Assembly (NCBI GenBank): GCA_002683135.1
Contig: NYSS01000045.1
Span: 21,863-59,038 of the forward strand
Source of the DNA: Planctomycetota bacterium
GTDB lineage: Bacteria; Planctomycetota; GCA-002687715
Direction: 5' to 3'
DNA: 37,176 nucleotides
Shown here: in pieces, positions 7,594 to 30,191 of the stretch
Position numbering within the stretch: the first letter of the stretch is position 1
Layout: each line of letters starts with the position of its first letter
Made by a program: the position numbers and the translations under genes
Notes under the pieces: model-generated
What the model saw: the letters and a program-made list of their open reading frames with translations, nothing else
Told to the model about the DNA's origin: nothing
The model's database searches: none

Positions 7594-7684
7594 GGTCCGG
7601 TCGAATGGAGCAGGCCGCAGCGGGGGCGTTTCGACCCCGCGTCACCGGCTTGTCTCGCCGCCCCTTCCCCCCGGAGCCAGCCCG

Positions 7685-10378
7685 ATGTTGAGTTTCGCAA
7701 GACGGTTGCGCTGTGTTCGTGTGGCGACCGTCGTCGCCCTTTGCACCATTGCCCTCGCCGCCTCCCTGCCCGGTCAGGTCAGCGTGCTCTCCAGCCTCTC
7801 GTTTACCAATGAGACCGGAGGTGCTCGCGATGGATTGGTCATGTCGTTTAGCCAACCTCTCGCCGCGAATCAGCCCAGCCTGGTGCCGGGCGGCGGCAAC
7901 GTGATCCCGCCCTTCACCTTGCCGGCCGGTTATCCGGACGGGTCCACGGTGGTGCTCAACGGGCAGACGGTGGGTGCGGGAGATCGGGTGCCGACTAACG
8001 GCACCATGACGTTCGTCGGCACCGTGGGCGATGCCAATGTCACCCTGACCCAGGCAGCCTGGACCGTGGCTGGCGTGGCCACGAACACGGTGGCCCAGAT
8101 TGAATTCGTGAACATGACGCAGACCTTCGCCAACAGGATCTCCTTCACGGCTGTGGATGCGACAGGCGCCATCATTCCCATCCAGGACGTTCGCGCTGCC
8201 GAGACCTATGAGCCGTCAGTCTGTATGCCGACGAGCATCACCGGCGCGCCGGGCGGGACGGTGACCGTGGACGTGCCCTGCTGCGTCTCCGGATTCGGTG
8301 GCACCATCGGTCCTCTTCAGGTCACGTTTCAGACCGAGGCCCCCATCGGGGAGATCCGTTATCGGTTGCAACAGAACACCGCGAAGACCGGCAGCGCGTT
8401 GGAGAAGGTGGCGATGAACGAAGCTCAGGAGGAATCCGTCGGCTCCCAGTCGGCAGGCGCCGTGTCCATAGAGACCAATCTGGTCGTGGACGCGGTCTTC
8501 CCTCCCCACCTGGCCCCCTTCACGTTGATGTCGGGCCTCCGCAGCCGTGGCCTGTATGCGTGCGGCGGCTTCGTCGCACCTGGGACCACGTTGGTGGCCG
8601 GCCGCGTGGTCCTGACCAGCATGGACACGGGACCCCTCGACATCGGAACGGCCAACACCGGGGTGCTCTGGTACCCGGTCGCCCCGCGATTCGGGGCCGT
8701 TCCGGACGCCCTCTACTTCAACTTCGACGCGCTCATCGGCAACAGCGGGGTCGCCAACCTGGCGTCCCCCGGTGTGGGCGCCGACCCGGCTCCTCTGGTG
8801 GGGCATAGCCTCGTCGCCACCCAGGGACAGTTCGGCGGCGCCCTGCAGGGCGCCGGTATGACGACCGGCAGCTCGCTGGACACGGGGTGGGTACCCAACC
8901 TTGGCCTCGACGATTTCTCGGTGTCGTTCTGGCTCGACCGCAACGGCAACCAGGACAGCGTGGTGGCCGTATTTGGCGACTCCGGGTCCCTGCGCTGTCT
9001 TGTCCGGTCATCGGACCTCGAGCTACGGCTCAGCTCTCCGGCGGGTCCCCAGTTCGTGACCTTGCTCGGTGTGCTCCCGCCTTCCGGAGGCAAGACCTTC
9101 ACCTTCGTGCGCGACGGCGCCAACGCGGTCGTGAACGCCTACATGGACGGGAGCCTGGTCACGGCCCAAACGGTCACTCCTGTCTCCATCAACGGGCCCC
9201 AGAGCTTGACCATCGGAGCCGCCAGTAACCTGCCACCCTTCGGGGGAGGCATGCTGCTTGACGAGTTCCGCTTCTACCGTCGGATGCTGTCGGCGGGAGA
9301 GGTCTTCAGCACTCACAACAAGCAGCTCCCGTTGCCGCACTCGGGATCCATTGCCGTCGCCCAATGGCAATCCAATTCGTCCCTGGCCCGCTTCGAGGCG
9401 GACGGGGAGGGGGGGCGGCCGGGTCAGCCCGTGATCCTCACCCGCTGCGTCGGCGAGACGGTGATGATCTCGATGTCCAGCGAGAACCACGGGATGGGCT
9501 GGGAGCTCACCACCGCCTCAGGACTTCCCTCAGTGCAGCCTCGTTCGGTGCTCGGACTGGCGGTGGGCCATGAGCCCATCAACATCGACATTTTTGATCC
9601 CGCGACGGTGCCCATCAACGGCTACCTCTTCCAGTCGACGTTCAGCAATGCGGTGATCCCACTGTCCCCACCCGTAGCAACGGACATCCATGCCCAGCTG
9701 GCGATCGCCACGCCGACGCTGCCCCTGGGTATCGCGACGAGCGCGGCCGGGACGATCCAGTTCACCGACTCGGGCAGCCAGGAGGTGGTCTTGGGTCCGA
9801 ATTCGGATGACGGTTTCATCGAGATCTTCCCGGGGGTCCAGCCCTTGTGCGGGCCCGCGTTCGTGACGTTCGCCGGCACCGGGTACTCGTCGCTCTTCGT
9901 CAACGCCAACGGCTCGGTCAGCTTCGGCGCTCCGAGCACGGATGCGAGCCCTTCGCCTTCGGAGTTCGCCCTCGGCCCGCCACGTCTCGCGGGGCTCTGG
10001 ACCGACCTCAATCCGAGCGTGGGTGGGACTATCGTCACTCAGGTTCTCGGGGGCGCGGTGCGGGTGCGCTTCGACCATGTCTCCCACGGTGTGGCGGCGA
10101 TGGCCAGCAGCTTCGACCTCGTGCTGGGGCCCAACGGCGGCGCGTCCATCTTCGGATATCAGCCGGCGAGCGGCGGCGGCGCGAGTCTGGTCGGGCTCAC
10201 CCCGGGTGGAAACGCGACGGACCCAGGCAGCGTGACCTTCTCTTCGTTGGTCGGCGCGGGATTGCAAACCAGCGGTTCATCCGACATGGTGTACGAGTTC
10301 GTGGCTAGCGGTCCGCCGACCGGGTTCTATTCGATCCGGTTCCCCAACGCGGACGGCAGCGTCTTCATCGTGGAGTGA
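7685..10378 (+). CDS. Large secreted protein with LamG-like domain
   Basis: 897 residues. ATG 7685 is chosen over upstream in-frame starts because GGAG (7673-7676) lies 8 nt before it and a signal peptide (residues about 10-28, ending SLPGQ) follows. The N-terminal 200 residues form an all-beta region of unknown family. A concanavalin/LamG-like jelly roll lies at about 340-545, from DALYFNFDALIGNSG through DDFSVSFWLD to LLDEFRFYRRMLSAGE. A second beta-sandwich with some resemblance to nidogen-type (NIDO) domains is at about 710-870 (SSLFVNANGSVSFG, LAGLWTDLNPS, VRVRFDHVSHG). There is no enzyme motif and no obvious outer anchor. The kinase gene starts 21 nt downstream, so the two are likely one operon; a cell-surface or matrix role linked to kinase signalling is inference. 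Confidence 0.88.
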   Translation: MLSFARRLRCVRVATVVALCTIALAASLPGQVSVLSSLSFTNETGGARDGLVMSFSQPLAANQPSLVPGGGNVIPPFTLPAGYPDGSTVVLNGQTVGAGDRVPTNGTMTFVGTVGDANVTLTQAAWTVAGVATNTVAQIEFVNMTQTFANRISFTAVDATGAIIPIQDVRAAETYEPSVCMPTSITGAPGGTVTVDVPCCVSGFGGTIGPLQVTFQTEAPIGEIRYRLQQNTAKTGSALEKVAMNEAQEESVGSQSAGAVSIETNLVVDAVFPPHLAPFTLMSGLRSRGLYACGGFVAPGTTLVAGRVVLTSMDTGPLDIGTANTGVLWYPVAPRFGAVPDALYFNFDALIGNSGVANLASPGVGADPAPLVGHSLVATQGQFGGALQGAGMTTGSSLDTGWVPNLGLDDFSVSFWLDRNGNQDSVVAVFGDSGSLRCLVRSSDLELRLSSPAGPQFVTLLGVLPPSGGKTFTFVRDGANAVVNAYMDGSLVTAQTVTPVSINGPQSLTIGAASNLPPFGGGMLLDEFRFYRRMLSAGEVFSTHNKQLPLPHSGSIAVAQWQSNSSLARFEADGEGGRPGQPVILTRCVGETVMISMSSENHGMGWELTTASGLPSVQPRSVLGLAVGHEPINIDIFDPATVPINGYLFQSTFSNAVIPLSPPVATDIHAQLAIATPTLPLGIATSAAGTIQFTDSGSQEVVLGPNSDDGFIEIFPGVQPLCGPAFVTFAGTGYSSLFVNANGSVSFGAPSTDASPSPSEFALGPPRLAGLWTDLNPSVGGTIVTQVLGGAVRVRFDHVSHGVAAMASSFDLVLGPNGGASIFGYQPASGGGASLVGLTPGGNATDPGSVTFSSLVGAGLQTSGSSDMVYEFVASGPPTGFYSIRFPNADGSVFIVE

Positions 10379-22073: not shown

Positions 22074-22111
22074 CCGCGTTATCCTGTGTGTCCACGTTTG
22101 AGGAGTTCTTC

Positions 22112-22786
22112 ATGTCCAGGATGCTCGTCTTCGGTCTCGTCGTGGCAGGTATCTTCATGGTCGCGTGCGACGCCTCGCGTCCGGTCGCGGGCGTTCGGGA
22201 TGACCGGCCGGCGGCGGTCGCGGACGATCAACAGACAAAGGGAGAGACCATGACCGGCGCAGCGGAAGGCAACCTTGAACTCGCGACGTTCGGCGGCGGT
22301 TGCTTCTGGTGCGTCGAGGCGGTCCTGGAGCAGCTCGACGGCGTTTCGGACGCCACCTCCGGCTACATGGGGGGCCACGTGACGGATCCGACGTACGCGC
22401 AGATCTGCACCAAGACGACGGGGCATATCGAGGTCGTGCAGGTGACCTACGATCCGTCCAAGGTCGGTTACGGCACCTTGCTCAAGTGGTTCTTCAAGGC
22501 CCACGACCCGACGTCCCGCGACCGCCAGGGGGGAGACAAGGGGCCTCAGTACCGCTCGGCCATCTTCTGCCACTCCGAGGAGCAGAAGCAGGCGGCGCGC
22601 GACGCCATCGCCAAGATCGACGCGAGCGACGCGTTCGCGAACAAGATCGTCACCGACGTGCTCGATGCGCAGACGTTCTGGAAGGCGGAGAGCGAGCACC
22701 AGGACTTCTATCGGAACAACAAGGAGTACGGGTACTGTCAGGTGGTGATCACGCCCAAGCTCGACAAGCTCGGGCTCGACAAGTGA
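22112..22786 (+). CDS. msrA: Peptide methionine sulfoxide reductase MsrA, lipoprotein form
   Basis: 224 residues. ATG 22112 is chosen over GTG 22088 because GAGGAG (22100-22105) lies 6 nt before it and it gives a lipoprotein signal (LVFGLVVAGIFMVAC, Cys19). The MsrA domain starts at about 55 with the catalytic G-C-F-W-C (63-67, Cys64), then GYMGGHVTDPTYAQIC and TGHIEVVQVTYDP, all diagnostic. It reduces the S-epimer of methionine sulfoxide, here presumably in exported proteins. A TATCCT box at 22080-22085 may give it its own promoter. The stop TGA abuts the stop of the convergent gene: together they form the palindrome TGATCA (22784-22789). Confidence 0.97.
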   Translation: MSRMLVFGLVVAGIFMVACDASRPVAGVRDDRPAAVADDQQTKGETMTGAAEGNLELATFGGGCFWCVEAVLEQLDGVSDATSGYMGGHVTDPTYAQICTKTTGHIEVVQVTYDPSKVGYGTLLKWFFKAHDPTSRDRQGGDKGPQYRSAIFCHSEEQKQAARDAIAKIDASDAFANKIVTDVLDAQTFWKAESEHQDFYRNNKEYGYCQVVITPKLDKLGLDK

Positions 22787-26834: not shown

Positions 26835-29054
26835 CTACTGGGCTGCGTCCAGCGCGTTGGCGATGACGAGCAGGGCCATGGCCGTGCCGTAGCTGCGTCC
26901 GACCTCATGGCTATCCATGAACGTGCCGTCCATTTCGGGGTATCCGAGGACGTGGTCGAGCAGCCGTTCGTGGTGCTCGCCGCGCTGACCCGCTGGGAGC
27001 AGGGAGATGGCTTCGCTCGTGTGGTACAGGGCGTGGAAGAACATGAACCCGGCGATCTGCCCGTCCGAATGGAAGTCGGTGCGGCGGACCGCCTCGATCC
27101 TGTCGTAGAACTTCCAGAACGTGTCGAACGCGAACCGCATGCGCTTGTCGTCGCTGGCGCCGAGGGACAGCAGGGCTCCCTCGGCCATGGGCATACGTGT
27201 GCTCGCGTTCTTCAGCCCGTCGCCGCGAGACGCGCCGCGGGCGGCGCCGCCGTAGGAGAACGACCCGTCCTCGAAGCGCGCCGCCAAGAGCGCGGTCTTG
27301 GCGCTGTCCAGGACAGGCTGGGGGATCTTGACCCCGCAGCCCTTGGCCGCGACCAGGCCCTGGACCATCGCGGCTGTGCAGAACGCGTTGCCGTATTCGT
27401 GGGCCCAGAATCCGGTTTCTGCCTGGCGCGACTCGGCGTCCTTGACGATGCTGCGCATGTGGAGGCGCAGCTTGCGTCGGCGCGTCTCGTCTCCCGACGC
27501 CCGGTGCCTGGCGGCGAGGTACATCAAACGATACGCATCCGAGTACACGTCCTCGTTCTTGCCCCGGTTCATGTGCATGGGGTCCAAGAGGTACTTCTCG
27601 CCGCGGCGGATGGCGTCATCGATGGTCTCGTGCAGAGACTCCGGAGCGCGCGCCTTCTGGCGCAGCAGCGCCTGGCATGCGAGGGACGAGACGGCTACCC
27701 ACACGTTTGGGGTGATCCGCTTGTCGGGGCAGTAGGCGTAGCGCGCGTCGTTCCAGCCGCCGTCGTCGCGCTGCTGCTCCAGCAGGAAGCGGACGCTCCG
27801 ATCCACGACGTCGGTGATGGGGAGGCGGTCGCCCGGCCACGTGGTGTCGATGGGCAGGGTCTTGAAGGCCCCGTCGGGTAGCCACTGGAGCCGCGCGACA
27901 CCGGAAAAGGCCGCCCCGATGGGGCGTCCATCATCGATGCCGACGAGCACATTAGCCTTGGCACGACGCCCCCAGACCGTGTCCGGGTGGTCCTGGACGA
28001 TCTTCTGGAACCGGCGCACGGCGCCGACCTCGTCACCTGCCTGGGCGCGCAGGCGCGCGAGCAGGTACGCGGCCTCCGCCTGGCGCGGGCCCGCCGTGTC
28101 AGCCGCGGCCTGCAGCGGCTGGATCGCCTCGTCAAAGCGGCCCGAGCGTACGAGGATCAATCCGCGCTCCGCCTGGAACCCGCCGCCGAGGGGCGCGAGG
28201 CCCGGGACGCGTCCCCTCCGGGCCGAGCGCTCGAAGCTCCGCGCCTCGCGAGGAGACATGTCTTTGGTTTTTTCGTCGATGACCTGTTGCCGCGTCGCGA
28301 GCGCGTTGTCGAGCTGTTCGAGCGCGGTCTCGCCGTCACGGGCGCGTCGCAAGAGCGTGGCGCGCTGGTAGATCTTATTCGGCGTCGGCTTCTCAGCGCT
28401 CATGAGCGACGTCAGCGCGTGCGCCCATTCGCCGCGGTCCATGGCCGCGTCGAACGAGGCGCCATCGGCGAGCTTGCCGTGCGCCTTCTCGAGGACATCG
28501 CGCAGGACGCCGCACATCCACGGCGCGTTGATCGTGCGAATGTTGCGCACGATGTGTAGAGCGCTCCCATCTGGCGCGATGAAGATCACCGCGGGTTCCA
28601 GGAACGTGAGGGGGCGGACGTCGAATCGTTTGCACAGATCGTCGTCGCATACCATGCGGATCGGCGTGAAAGACGCCTTCACGATTCGCTCCACGTCCGG
28701 GTCACTCCAGACGACCTGGCGCATAGCGATGTCCAGCACGGGCGCCCGGATCATCTGGCGTCCGCGCTTGGTGGACTCGACCACCTTGTAGACGTACCAG
28801 AGCACCGGCTTCTTCGATTCCCTGGCCTGAGCGATGGCGGCGTCCAGCATGGCCACGCGATCGACGGCGGCCTCCTTCGAGGTCAGGGAGGTCTTGAAGC
28901 GCTGCTTGTCGAGGAACTCGGCCTCGTCGTCCACCCACTCGATGGTCTCCAGTTGGAGGCCCTGAGCTGGGTGGGCGCGGCTGGGGGCTTGGGGGCGCTG
29001 GGCGGGGAGGAGGGCGGCCAGGACGGCGAATAGGGTGAAGGTTTTGCGGTTCAT
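26835..29054 (-). CDS. Secreted thioredoxin-like, TPR and alpha/alpha-toroid (prenyltransferase-repeat) protein
   Basis: 739 residues with a signal peptide (MNRKTFTLFAVLAALLPAQ). Residues about 60-195 look like a thioredoxin fold of the exported type (AAIAQARESKKPVLWYVYK, DVRPLTFLEPAVIFIAPDGS) but lack a CxxC, so it is not a redox enzyme. Residues about 205-370 carry TPR-like helices (FQAERGLILVRSGRFDEAIQPL, AYLLARLRAQAGDEVGAVRRF). From about 400 to the end are repeats of the squalene-cyclase/prenyltransferase type (VDRSVRFLLEQQRDDGGW, ALLAARFEDGSFSYGG). It is divergent from, and 106 nt away from, another exported thioredoxin-like gene. On the minus strand TAGACT ends 9 nt before the ATG. Biochemical role unknown. 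Confidence 0.85.
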   Translation of the reverse strand: MNRKTFTLFAVLAALLPAQRPQAPSRAHPAQGLQLETIEWVDDEAEFLDKQRFKTSLTSKEAAVDRVAMLDAAIAQARESKKPVLWYVYKVVESTKRGRQMIRAPVLDIAMRQVVWSDPDVERIVKASFTPIRMVCDDDLCKRFDVRPLTFLEPAVIFIAPDGSALHIVRNIRTINAPWMCGVLRDVLEKAHGKLADGASFDAAMDRGEWAHALTSLMSAEKPTPNKIYQRATLLRRARDGETALEQLDNALATRQQVIDEKTKDMSPREARSFERSARRGRVPGLAPLGGGFQAERGLILVRSGRFDEAIQPLQAAADTAGPRQAEAAYLLARLRAQAGDEVGAVRRFQKIVQDHPDTVWGRRAKANVLVGIDDGRPIGAAFSGVARLQWLPDGAFKTLPIDTTWPGDRLPITDVVDRSVRFLLEQQRDDGGWNDARYAYCPDKRITPNVWVAVSSLACQALLRQKARAPESLHETIDDAIRRGEKYLLDPMHMNRGKNEDVYSDAYRLMYLAARHRASGDETRRRKLRLHMRSIVKDAESRQAETGFWAHEYGNAFCTAAMVQGLVAAKGCGVKIPQPVLDSAKTALLAARFEDGSFSYGGAARGASRGDGLKNASTRMPMAEGALLSLGASDDKRMRFAFDTFWKFYDRIEAVRRTDFHSDGQIAGFMFFHALYHTSEAISLLPAGQRGEHHERLLDHVLGYPEMDGTFMDSHEVGRSYGTAMALLVIANALDAAQ

Positions 29055-29137: not shown

Positions 29138-29160
29138 AAGTGGTCGTTTTGGAGAATGCT

Positions 29161-30132
29161 ATGAGAGTCATTGCGGGCGCCCTGGCCCTGTCGGTCGCCT
29201 TGAGTGCGGTCGCAGGAGCGCAGAGCAACGAAGAGAAATACAAGAAGAAGCTCGAGAAGGAGTTCGTCTCCAAGGTCGAGTGGGTGACAAGTCTGGAGAA
29301 GGCTCAAGAGGCCGCCGCTGCGCAGAACAAGCTGATCTTCGGCTACTTCACGCGCAGCTACTCCCCGTGACCTCCCTGCAACGCATTGGAGGGGGGTCCC
29401 CTCCTTGAAGAGTGGTGGGCAGAGGCCAGCAAAACTGTGATCCCGTATCTCAACGTGACCGCTCGCTTTGACGGCGCACCGGATCAGGATCTCTTGAAGG
29501 CAAAGGGCGGCCGCGGCTTCCCCTATTGCACGATCATGAACGCCAAGGGCGATGTGGTCTGGGAGGTCCGGCCGAGCGCTCAGGCGGCGTTCGCCAAGGG
29601 CGTCAAGGGCGCCACCGCGCTCGCGAAGTTCCAGGCCGAACTGGAGAAGGACAAGGAGAACAAGGCCCTTCAGGCCAACGTCGCCATCCTCGACTTCATG
29701 GGCCGCAACCAGCGCGAGAAGACGTCGACCGTCGCCGAGCTCGAAGAGCTCGCGAAGGCCGAGGGCGTCGACGCGGAGATCTTGAAGGAGTTCTCCACGA
29801 TCAAGAAGAGCGAGCAGATCATGGGCGCGCTTCGTAGTCAGCGCCGTGACGGCGGCAAAGCCTTGCTCGCATTGGCGAAGAAGGGCGTCGCGCCGGACGA
29901 CGACGATGACATGGCGACGCAGTACTGGGTCATGGTGACCCAGGCCGCGATCGGGGCCAAGGATACGGCGCTCGCCACCAAGGCGGTCGACAAGTTCGTG
30001 GCGTCCGCGAAGGGCAAGCCCTTCGAGAAGCGCGCCGAGGAGTTCGGGGCTGATCTCAAGAAGCAGATCGCTGAGATCTCCGCCGGCGGCGACAAGAAGG
30101 ACGGCGGCGACAAGAAGGACGGCGGAAAGTAG
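29161..30132 (+). CDS. Secreted thioredoxin-like selenoprotein candidate (UxxC), read through TGA at 29368
   Basis: ATG 29161 (GGAG 6 nt upstream) begins a signal peptide (about 1-20, ending AVAGA). The frame meets TGA at 29368-29370, codon 70, and is then open in the same frame to TAG 30130-30132, for 323 residues in all. Before TGA: QNKLIFGYFTRSYSP; after it: P-P-C-N-A-L-E-G-G-P-L. The TGA thus occupies the first redox position of a thioredoxin-type motif, giving U-P-P-C (Sec70, Cys73). Downstream the fold continues (TVIPYLNVTARFDG, GFPYCTIMNAKGDVVWEV), followed by an Ala/Lys-rich helical region and a GGDKKD repeat tail. A stem-loop with GGU loop follows the TGA at SECIS distance. The alternatives, a nonsense mutation or sequencing error of a Cys codon, would need to fall on exactly this codon. 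Role: exported thiol-selenol redox protein (inference). Confidence 0.85.
29388..29404 (+). promoter_or_regulatory. Candidate bacterial SECIS hairpin
   Basis: GGAGGGG (29388-29394) pairs perfectly with CCCCTCC (29398-29404) around the three-base loop GGT (29395-29397). The loop begins 24 nt after the TGA ends, inside the spacing usually allowed for bacterial SECIS elements, and has G at its first two positions as SelB recognition usually needs. The stem is built from codons such as TTG, GGG and CTT that are uncommon in this GC-rich gene, which suggests selection on the RNA. No bulged U is seen in the stem. Confidence 0.75.
30085..30120 (+). repeat. Two tandem 18-bp copies encoding GGDKKD
   Basis: GGCGGCGACAAGAAGGAC occurs at 30085-30102 and again, identical, at 30103-30120, at the 3' end of the selenoprotein candidate. 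It codes for a hydrophilic Gly/Asp/Lys tail; a site where copy number could vary by slippage. Confidence 0.9.
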
Positions 30133-30151: not shown

Positions 30152-30191
30152 ACGAAAAACGCCCCGGGGGAGACCCCGGGGCGTTTTTCGT
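30152..30191. terminator. Bidirectional intrinsic terminator
   Basis: An 18-bp perfect stem, ACGAAAAACGCCCCGGGG (30152-30169) with its reverse complement (30174-30191), closes a GAGA loop. The five A and five T flanking the GC core give a U-tract in both directions. It serves both convergent genes, the selenoprotein candidate and the M28 peptidase, and starts 19 nt after the former's stop. Confidence 0.95.

Follow-up and report, generated by a model that had tools for sequence, protein, structure and literature searches.

The window analysed here, a stretch of 37,176 nucleotides from the Planctomycetota contig NYSS01000045.1, carries on its plus strand a candidate selenoprotein gene (29161–30132) whose reading frame contains a TGA. 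As a preliminary description of the DNA had it, the locus presents as two open frames that share one reading frame and are parted by the TGA at 29368–29370. Read with this TGA as selenocysteine (Sec), the frame runs from an ATG at 29161 through 323 codons to a TAG at 30130–30132, and residue 70 falls within the motif S-P-U-P-P-C-N, in which the partner Cys73 is encoded at 29377–29379 (UPPC). The other features are collected in Table 1.

The same description credited the upstream piece with a signal peptide and the first half of a thioredoxin-like fold. A signal-peptide-like N-terminus is indeed present; the share of the fold was overstated, since in an AlphaFold2 model less than half of it – the N-terminal helices and the first strand (58–64) – lies in the upstream piece, the rest following residue 70. 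The earliest start codon past the TGA is a TTG at 29386, which overlaps the foot of the hairpin listed in Table 1. Beyond the gene, a pattern scan for terminators did not list the terminator on the plus strand, giving only a shorter, overlapping match on the minus strand.

Table 1. Features of the candidate selenoprotein gene and its flanks
Feature	Position	Strand	Basis
GGAGA, likely Shine-Dalgarno sequence, 5 nt before the ATG	29151–29155	+	read directly
Candidate selenoprotein gene	29161–30132	+	frame read with TGA as U; homologues on either side of the TGA
Putative signal peptide MRVIAGALALSVALSAVAGAQ with a signal-peptidase-I-like AxA end	29161–29223	+	read by eye from the translation, no predictor
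Predicted thioredoxin fold: strands 58–64, 93–99, 123–126 and 132–136, plus helices	29332–29649	+	AlphaFold2 model, alignment A1
Sec-UGA, residue 70	29368–29370	+	122 of 130 core homologues share a TGA at this column
Bacterial SECIS-like hairpin: 7-bp stem, apical loop GGU (29395–29397), 24 nt past the UGA	29388–29404	+	fold and family tests
Predicted C-terminal all-helical TPR-like domain	29650–30090	+	AlphaFold2 model; best Foldseek match E. coli YbbN
Intrinsic terminator: perfect 10-bp G+C stem, 4-nt loop, T5	30160–30188	+	read directly

Conservation of the TGA column

A critical issue is whether the TGA is more than an accident of sequence. The two strands of the window together hold 17 pairs of open frames (at least 69 plus 200 codons) joined by a TGA, this pair included; such frames being common by chance, the case rests on comparison with homologues. 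In a first survey 199 planctomycete genomes were searched at protein level with a cut-off of E 1e-3; Sec was written as Cys in the query, which put relatives with Cys at no disadvantage. Relatives were found in 62 of the 199 genomes (the window's own counted), most with one internal TGA, and two named records of Planctomycetota metagenome-assembled genomes (MAGs) encode relatives of 55% and 47% identity, both with TGA; the former record appears to equal contig G003:C121. A profile of 67 members (alignment A1) was then searched against 392 planctomycete genomes, giving matches in 106 at E 1e-15 or better, a set that includes more distant thioredoxins, and in 81 at better than 1e-30. A genome may hold up to five copies (G382); on contig 29 of another (G120; loci L036 and L060) three tandem paralogues are found, every one of them with a TGA and a hairpin of its own.

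We took as core homologues the rows with a profile score of at least 130 bits, a threshold set by hand once the scores were known; the 130 such rows come from both genome surveys plus one named record. The preliminary description had placed the TGA at the first Cys of a CxxC motif and proposed a search for homologues with Cys or Sec at residue 70. Both points are borne out by the column: 122 core rows carry TGA (121 UxxC, one UxxA) and four carry Cys (three CxxC, one CxxS), so that 126 of the 130 have a TGA or Cys codon, the remaining four having Tyr, Ser, Leu and Trp, one each. Eighteen distant rows divide into 16 UxxC and two CxxC. With all stops read through, the column in 155 rows contains TGA 138 times, TGC six times, other sense codons four times and a gap seven times (the gapped rows are excluded from the column count, leaving 148); neither TAA nor TAG occurs there in any of the 155 aligned rows. 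A second TGA is seen in 16 of the 155, always at the far C-terminal end, where it is probably the stop. Loci L047 and L060 were omitted as copies of L018 and L036, and two of the distant rows (L088, L166) resemble core members truncated at the end of a contig or in a short stretch; the loci fetched do not include four weak matches from the first survey, nor the weak matches and unlisted tail of the 392-genome survey. Sequencing error is rejected as a source of the TGA, for it cannot recur at one column in more than 100 genes of other genomes. On the evidence of these alignments the family is widespread across Planctomycetota, with Sec the normal and Cys the rare residue.

Several departures from the usual motif deserve record. 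The profile match is still good at four loci with Tyr, Ser, Leu or Trp in place of Sec (L079, L089, L090, L164), members that are perhaps redox-dead paralogues; the first of these loci additionally holds a Sec copy. At another (L067) the TGA is kept and the partner Cys replaced by Ala (UAPA). More distant planctomycete thioredoxin-like proteins (L091–L108; UPPC, WUGPC and others) likewise have a TGA in that column, as do 16 of the 18 distant rows, and may constitute further selenoprotein families.

The downstream hairpin and the selenocysteine machinery

Bacterial selenocysteine insertion sequence (bSECIS) elements are described, in a review that also catalogues selenoprotein families (PMC13188914), by five criteria: a loop of 3–9 nt, a stem of 4–16 bp, a position 16–37 nt from the UGA, a minimum free energy of at most -7.5, and a G within the first two loop positions. 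The hairpin of the window gene folds at -13.5 kcal/mol as 29383–29412. Across the 85 distinct genes of the first set the alignment past the UGA is gap-free over 48 nt, and the apical loop starts mostly 24 or 25 nt past the UGA, as GGU, GGC, GUN or GGUC. All five criteria hold in 81 of these 85 genes, the window gene included, the other four failing on energy alone; in the full set they hold in 122 of 128 distinct Sec genes, as against 35% of synonymous shuffles (made within each gene, preserving protein and codon usage), 3 of 128 windows taken 20 codons further on, and one of ten non-Sec homologues.

Stability tells the same story. From the full set 138 rows were kept for shuffling, those with fewer than 40 codons past the column and those with identical windows being excluded. 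The 128 Sec genes have a mean z of -2.21 against their shuffles, with 80 of the 128 at 5% or less, whereas control windows of the same genes and the ten non-Sec homologues give -0.06 and -0.13. For the first set the values were -2.00 (78 Sec rows), -0.09 (control windows) and -0.41 (12 non-Sec rows, among them a pair of neighbouring thioredoxins and one protein represented twice). Several stem pairs, moreover, are altered on both sides yet still paired. In the register with its loop at 28–30 (30 distinct sequences) the pair 21–37 appears as GC, TA, CG, AT, GT and one CA, the pair 27–31 as CG and GC, and the pair 25–33 as GC, CG, GT and AT; in the other register (31 sequences) the pair 27–33 is CG, TA or GC, and the pair 28–32 is GC in 21, AT in four, GT in one and unpaired (CT/CC) in five. 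Because the register was read from each fold, the share of paired cells within registers is high by construction. A single consensus structure was rejected: there are two or three registers, and the consensus of the 85 genes comprises five pairs with 5–20 broken cells each.

The genes needed to use such an element are at hand. The window's genome (G000), an assembly of 209 contigs at 91% completeness and 5.2% contamination, encodes a tRNA-Sec (selC, 73.8 bits), SelB (332 bits), SelA (523 bits) and two clear SelD proteins (388 and 352 bits), so that all four genes named as a check in the preliminary description are present. selA, selD and selC form a compact, contiguous operon on contig 184 (L112, about 7611–10199), and the second SelD gene lies on contig 12 (6407–7327). 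As both SelD genes have one in-frame TGA, the genome probably makes at least three selenoproteins; one SelD gene has a hairpin with loop GUC 33 nt past its TGA. Over the 199 genomes, a clear tRNA-Sec occurs in 53 of the 57 that have a TGA homologue and in 76 of the 142 that lack one (Fisher p 2.4e-8), a test that ignores kinship and takes its TGA label from the stop count of the match rather than from the aligned column. The cut-off for a clear tRNA-Sec, E below 1e-10, was set by hand after the scores were known, because lower matches, taken for other tRNAs, reach about 54 bits. Column-wise conservation of the TGA, a hairpin placed as required and the four sel genes together uphold the original proposal of a hidden selenoprotein.

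Predicted protein and rival explanations

The predicted protein has two domains, a thioredoxin fold followed by a TPR-like one. An AlphaFold2 model made from a three-row alignment (mean pLDDT, the model's confidence score, 76.6) extends the thioredoxin fold to about residue 163; ten-residue blocks of the helical domain that follows score 87 or more, apart from a single block of 77. In the model UxxC comes after the first strand and a cis-Pro loop is present, with low confidence at the active-site loop, and P121, at the cis-proline-like position, is invariant among the 67 sequences of A1. Searched by the family profile, the nearest solved sequence is DsbH of Chlamydia (2ju5, 3.2e-10), followed by a putative isomerase (2kuc, 1.9e-4) and by other thioredoxin-family proteins down to 2e-3, DsbD-gamma (about 1e-3) among them. 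Pfam Thioredoxin_7 is matched by 63 of the 67 members at E up to 0.1 and by the window protein at 12.7 bits (cut-off 27). In the Foldseek ranking YbbN (4.5e-3) heads the list, followed by a disulfide isomerase from Xylella and then by ERp19, an archaeal domain, AGR3 and AGR2; DsbH comes ninth.

From these features we infer how the gene and its product would work. The hairpin would recruit SelB with Sec-tRNA(Sec), and the UGA would for that reason be read as Sec; the product, with its signal peptide, would be exported. The protein most likely works like an exported thiol-disulfide oxidoreductase of the DsbH/DsbD-gamma kind in which Sec is the attacking residue: the selenolate of Sec70 would attack an oxidised group on a client (a disulfide, a sulfenic acid or the like), Cys73 would resolve the intermediate via a selenenylsulfide, and a periplasmic reductase would have to recycle that selenenylsulfide. 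The predicted TPR-like domain may serve to hold the client, most likely its role in such a scheme.

We regard it as very probable, judging from sequence comparison, that 29161–30132 is one intact gene in which UGA encodes Sec and whose product belongs to a family of exported UxxC oxidoreductases with thioredoxin and TPR-like domains; the assignment of Sec to residue 70 appears as firm as computation allows. Were the TGA a true stop, the locus would yield a 69-residue exported peptide and a dead or separately translated remnant. Standard gene finding would say just that, and TGA-joined frames are frequent in the window; yet the same codon in the same column of the core homologues, the protein similarity on both sides of it in many genera, and the predominance of TGA over a complete lack of TAA and TAG in the read-through rows make this account highly improbable, and a pseudogene is in effect refuted by the column. 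A changed genetic code, with UGA read as an ordinary amino acid such as Trp or Gly, would likewise keep TGA in frame and has no other support. It is about as improbable: the TGA replaces specifically the first Cys of CxxC, with Trp found there in a single core row and Cys in four, it is not scattered elsewhere in the family save for the terminal second TGA, and tRNA-Sec, SelA, SelB, SelD and a downstream SECIS-like hairpin are present.

Two further accounts accept the Sec and concern what the protein is. It could belong to a loosely named published family: either 'Trx-like 3' of the Global Ocean Sampling, which is UxxC, commoner in the sea and weakly matched to cd02950, and has Sec and Cys forms in about equal number (212 Sec sequences and 183 Cys homologues; PMC2398784), or the PF13098 'thiol:disulfide interchange protein', a model matched by 38 of the 67 members at E up to 0.1. 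We consider this unlikely. The window protein matches nothing in NCBIfam up to E 10 and exceeds no Pfam cut-off, ten relatives scanned one by one all fall far short of the cut-offs for DsbH, TsoB, Trx7/PDZ and VPGUxxT, and the ratio of Sec to Cys is 122:4 in Planctomycetota, the sole phylum surveyed, against 212:183. Slightly less unlikely, though still doubtful, is the idea of an exported, selenium-using chaperedoxin, in which a TPR-like holdase captures unfolding proteins and UxxC protects or reduces their cysteines, in the manner of E. coli CnoX/YbbN except that it would act outside the cytoplasm. YbbN is the best Foldseek match, over 310 alignment columns that span both domains. However, a TM-score of 0.24–0.27 with a root-mean-square deviation of 21 leaves the domain arrangement unmatched, proteins joining thioredoxin and TPR domains may have arisen repeatedly, and the profile search of solved structures, which DsbH leads, does not bring up YbbN at E up to 1, so that homology over both domains is not found.

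Several observations weigh against reading the locus as a Sec-decoding gene for a two-domain oxidoreductase. A clear tRNA-Sec was not found in four of the 57 genomes with a TGA homologue (77–91% complete). The window gene's own hairpin is borderline against synonymous shuffles (z -1.83, 5%). The 45 nt past its UGA are not unusually stable (z -0.91) and, folded alone, prefer a rival structure (-18.3 kcal/mol) that involves the first nucleotides after the UGA; a ribosome halted at the UGA should cover these, though that is an argument rather than a result. As to the protein, the active-site loop (66–81) is modelled at pLDDT below 50 and no Foldseek match reaches E 0.001. The two neighbours of the window gene are without relatives in loci L018–L108 and so give no functional clue, and the recurrent neighbour genes observed are mostly common to close relatives.

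Gene neighbourhood was for these reasons rejected as a guide to function. The divergent neighbour (26835–29054, minus strand) contains segments like TPR and squalene-hopene cyclase proteins (weak matches) and a very weak Thioredoxin_7 stretch (E 0.18). Further off in the window (22088–22786, plus strand) stands what we take, from its GCFWC motif, to be an MsrA-like gene; it carries an ordinary Cys, though Sec forms of MsrA are catalogued.

The history of the Sec residue can be approached through a quick maximum-likelihood tree of 146 rows, from which the Sec column was removed and two low-scoring rows left out. Its nine non-Sec rows are all separate tips and imply nine changes, of which starred branches force five or more. 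An open fork (support 92) joins the window gene to L018 (same family), to L048 and to L021, which has Cys; this fork lies within a starred clade of seven rows, six Sec and one Cys. The method gives no polarity to changes between Sec and non-Sec; with 137 Sec rows around scattered single exceptions, Sec is the simplest choice of ancestral state within the sampled phylum, and probably the ancestral residue there. A bolder reading, which we hold to be possible though doubtful, is of a Sec-founded family of exported planctomycete 'selenochaperedoxins' (thioredoxin-TPR) with a Sec ancestor, Sec near-obligatory, and Cys forms as rare late replacements. The review in PMC13188914 describes many bacterial selenoproteins as thought to derive from widespread Cys homologues, and Sec-to-Cys changes as rare and documented mainly for FdhA and SelD. 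A Sec-founded family, if real, would be the reverse of the first pattern, and from its origin one would understand how it can slip past search methods that require Cys homologues.

Relation to known families

The preliminary description could not name the family, and with reason: the window protein scores below the cut-off of every curated model in NCBIfam and Pfam. Among solved structures the nearest to the family profile is DsbH, a periplasmic disulfide reductase of Chlamydia (NF043050, PDB 2ju5) with an exported thioredoxin fold and a CxxC motif that uses Cys. Its model picks up 58 of the 67 members at E 0.1 or better, the best at 2.1e-11, and not the window protein; six of the ten singly scanned relatives match it at 20–35 bits (maximum 34.7) against a cut-off of 190, and its 166 positions have no room for the family's long helical C-terminal domain. 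The E. coli chaperedoxin CnoX/YbbN (PDB 3qou) shares with the family the order of a thioredoxin domain and then a TPR-like helical one; it is cytoplasmic and not known to contain Sec. AGR2, AGR3 and ERp19, eukaryotic proteins of the endoplasmic reticulum that are not known to contain Sec, resemble the family in their thioredoxin subfamily, judged by fold (Foldseek ranks 3, 5 and 6), and their chains of about 130 residues leave the second domain absent from those structures.

Among catalogued selenoproteins a related thioredoxin-like domain is found in the TsoB rhodanese/DsbD-fusion-like (NF045694) and Trx7/PDZ (NF041199) families, whose models are matched by 42 and 34 of the 67 members at E up to 0.1. 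Among the relatives scanned singly the scores are far from the cut-offs – 20–74 bits, all from distant relatives, against 805 for TsoB, and 20–25 against 300 for Trx7/PDZ – and Trx7/PDZ is listed with CxxU where the present family has UxxC. As the family's identity, DsbH, TsoB, Trx7/PDZ and VPGUxxT are ruled out by the window protein and the ten relatives (five core, five distant); members beyond those ten were scanned as one group, without cut-offs. GOS_C, or Omp28-like (NF045500), is described in PMC2398784 as UxxC, of thioredoxin-like fold and marine; it was rejected as a name, for its best score in the whole genome is 9.3 bits (cut-off 200), at another place.

The accessible part of PMC13188914, which catalogues 119 selenoprotein families and subfamilies, contains no visible match by name and motif and no mention of 'Planctomycet-'. 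Selenocysteine machinery and selenoproteins have been reported in two planctomycete genomes (PMC4807772), and a member of the family may figure among those candidates. Searches of the literature on planctomycete selenoproteins, UPPC, SECIS and metagenomic selenoproteins, deep-Sep and groundwater MAGs returned nothing on the family. Among catalogued families none is visibly identical with it, the loosely defined 'Trx-like 3' of 2008 being judged from its table description.

Ordinary annotation would break each Sec member into an orphan and a roughly 70-residue fragment, so that a whole redox family would be missed or split. The deep-Sep predictor, as set out in PMC12013277, keeps a candidate only if the top ten hits include one homologue known to have Sec or two or more with Cys, a rule that a family so dominated by Sec can fail. 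The ratio of 122 Sec to four Cys is itself unusual, and the eight core members that hold another residue on the same scaffold allow one to ask what Sec does in an exported protein. Against what was known before, our analysis adds the family's wide occurrence, its strong preference for Sec over Cys within the phylum, a conserved SECIS-like element and, as a predicted fold, the architecture of a thioredoxin domain followed by a TPR-like one.
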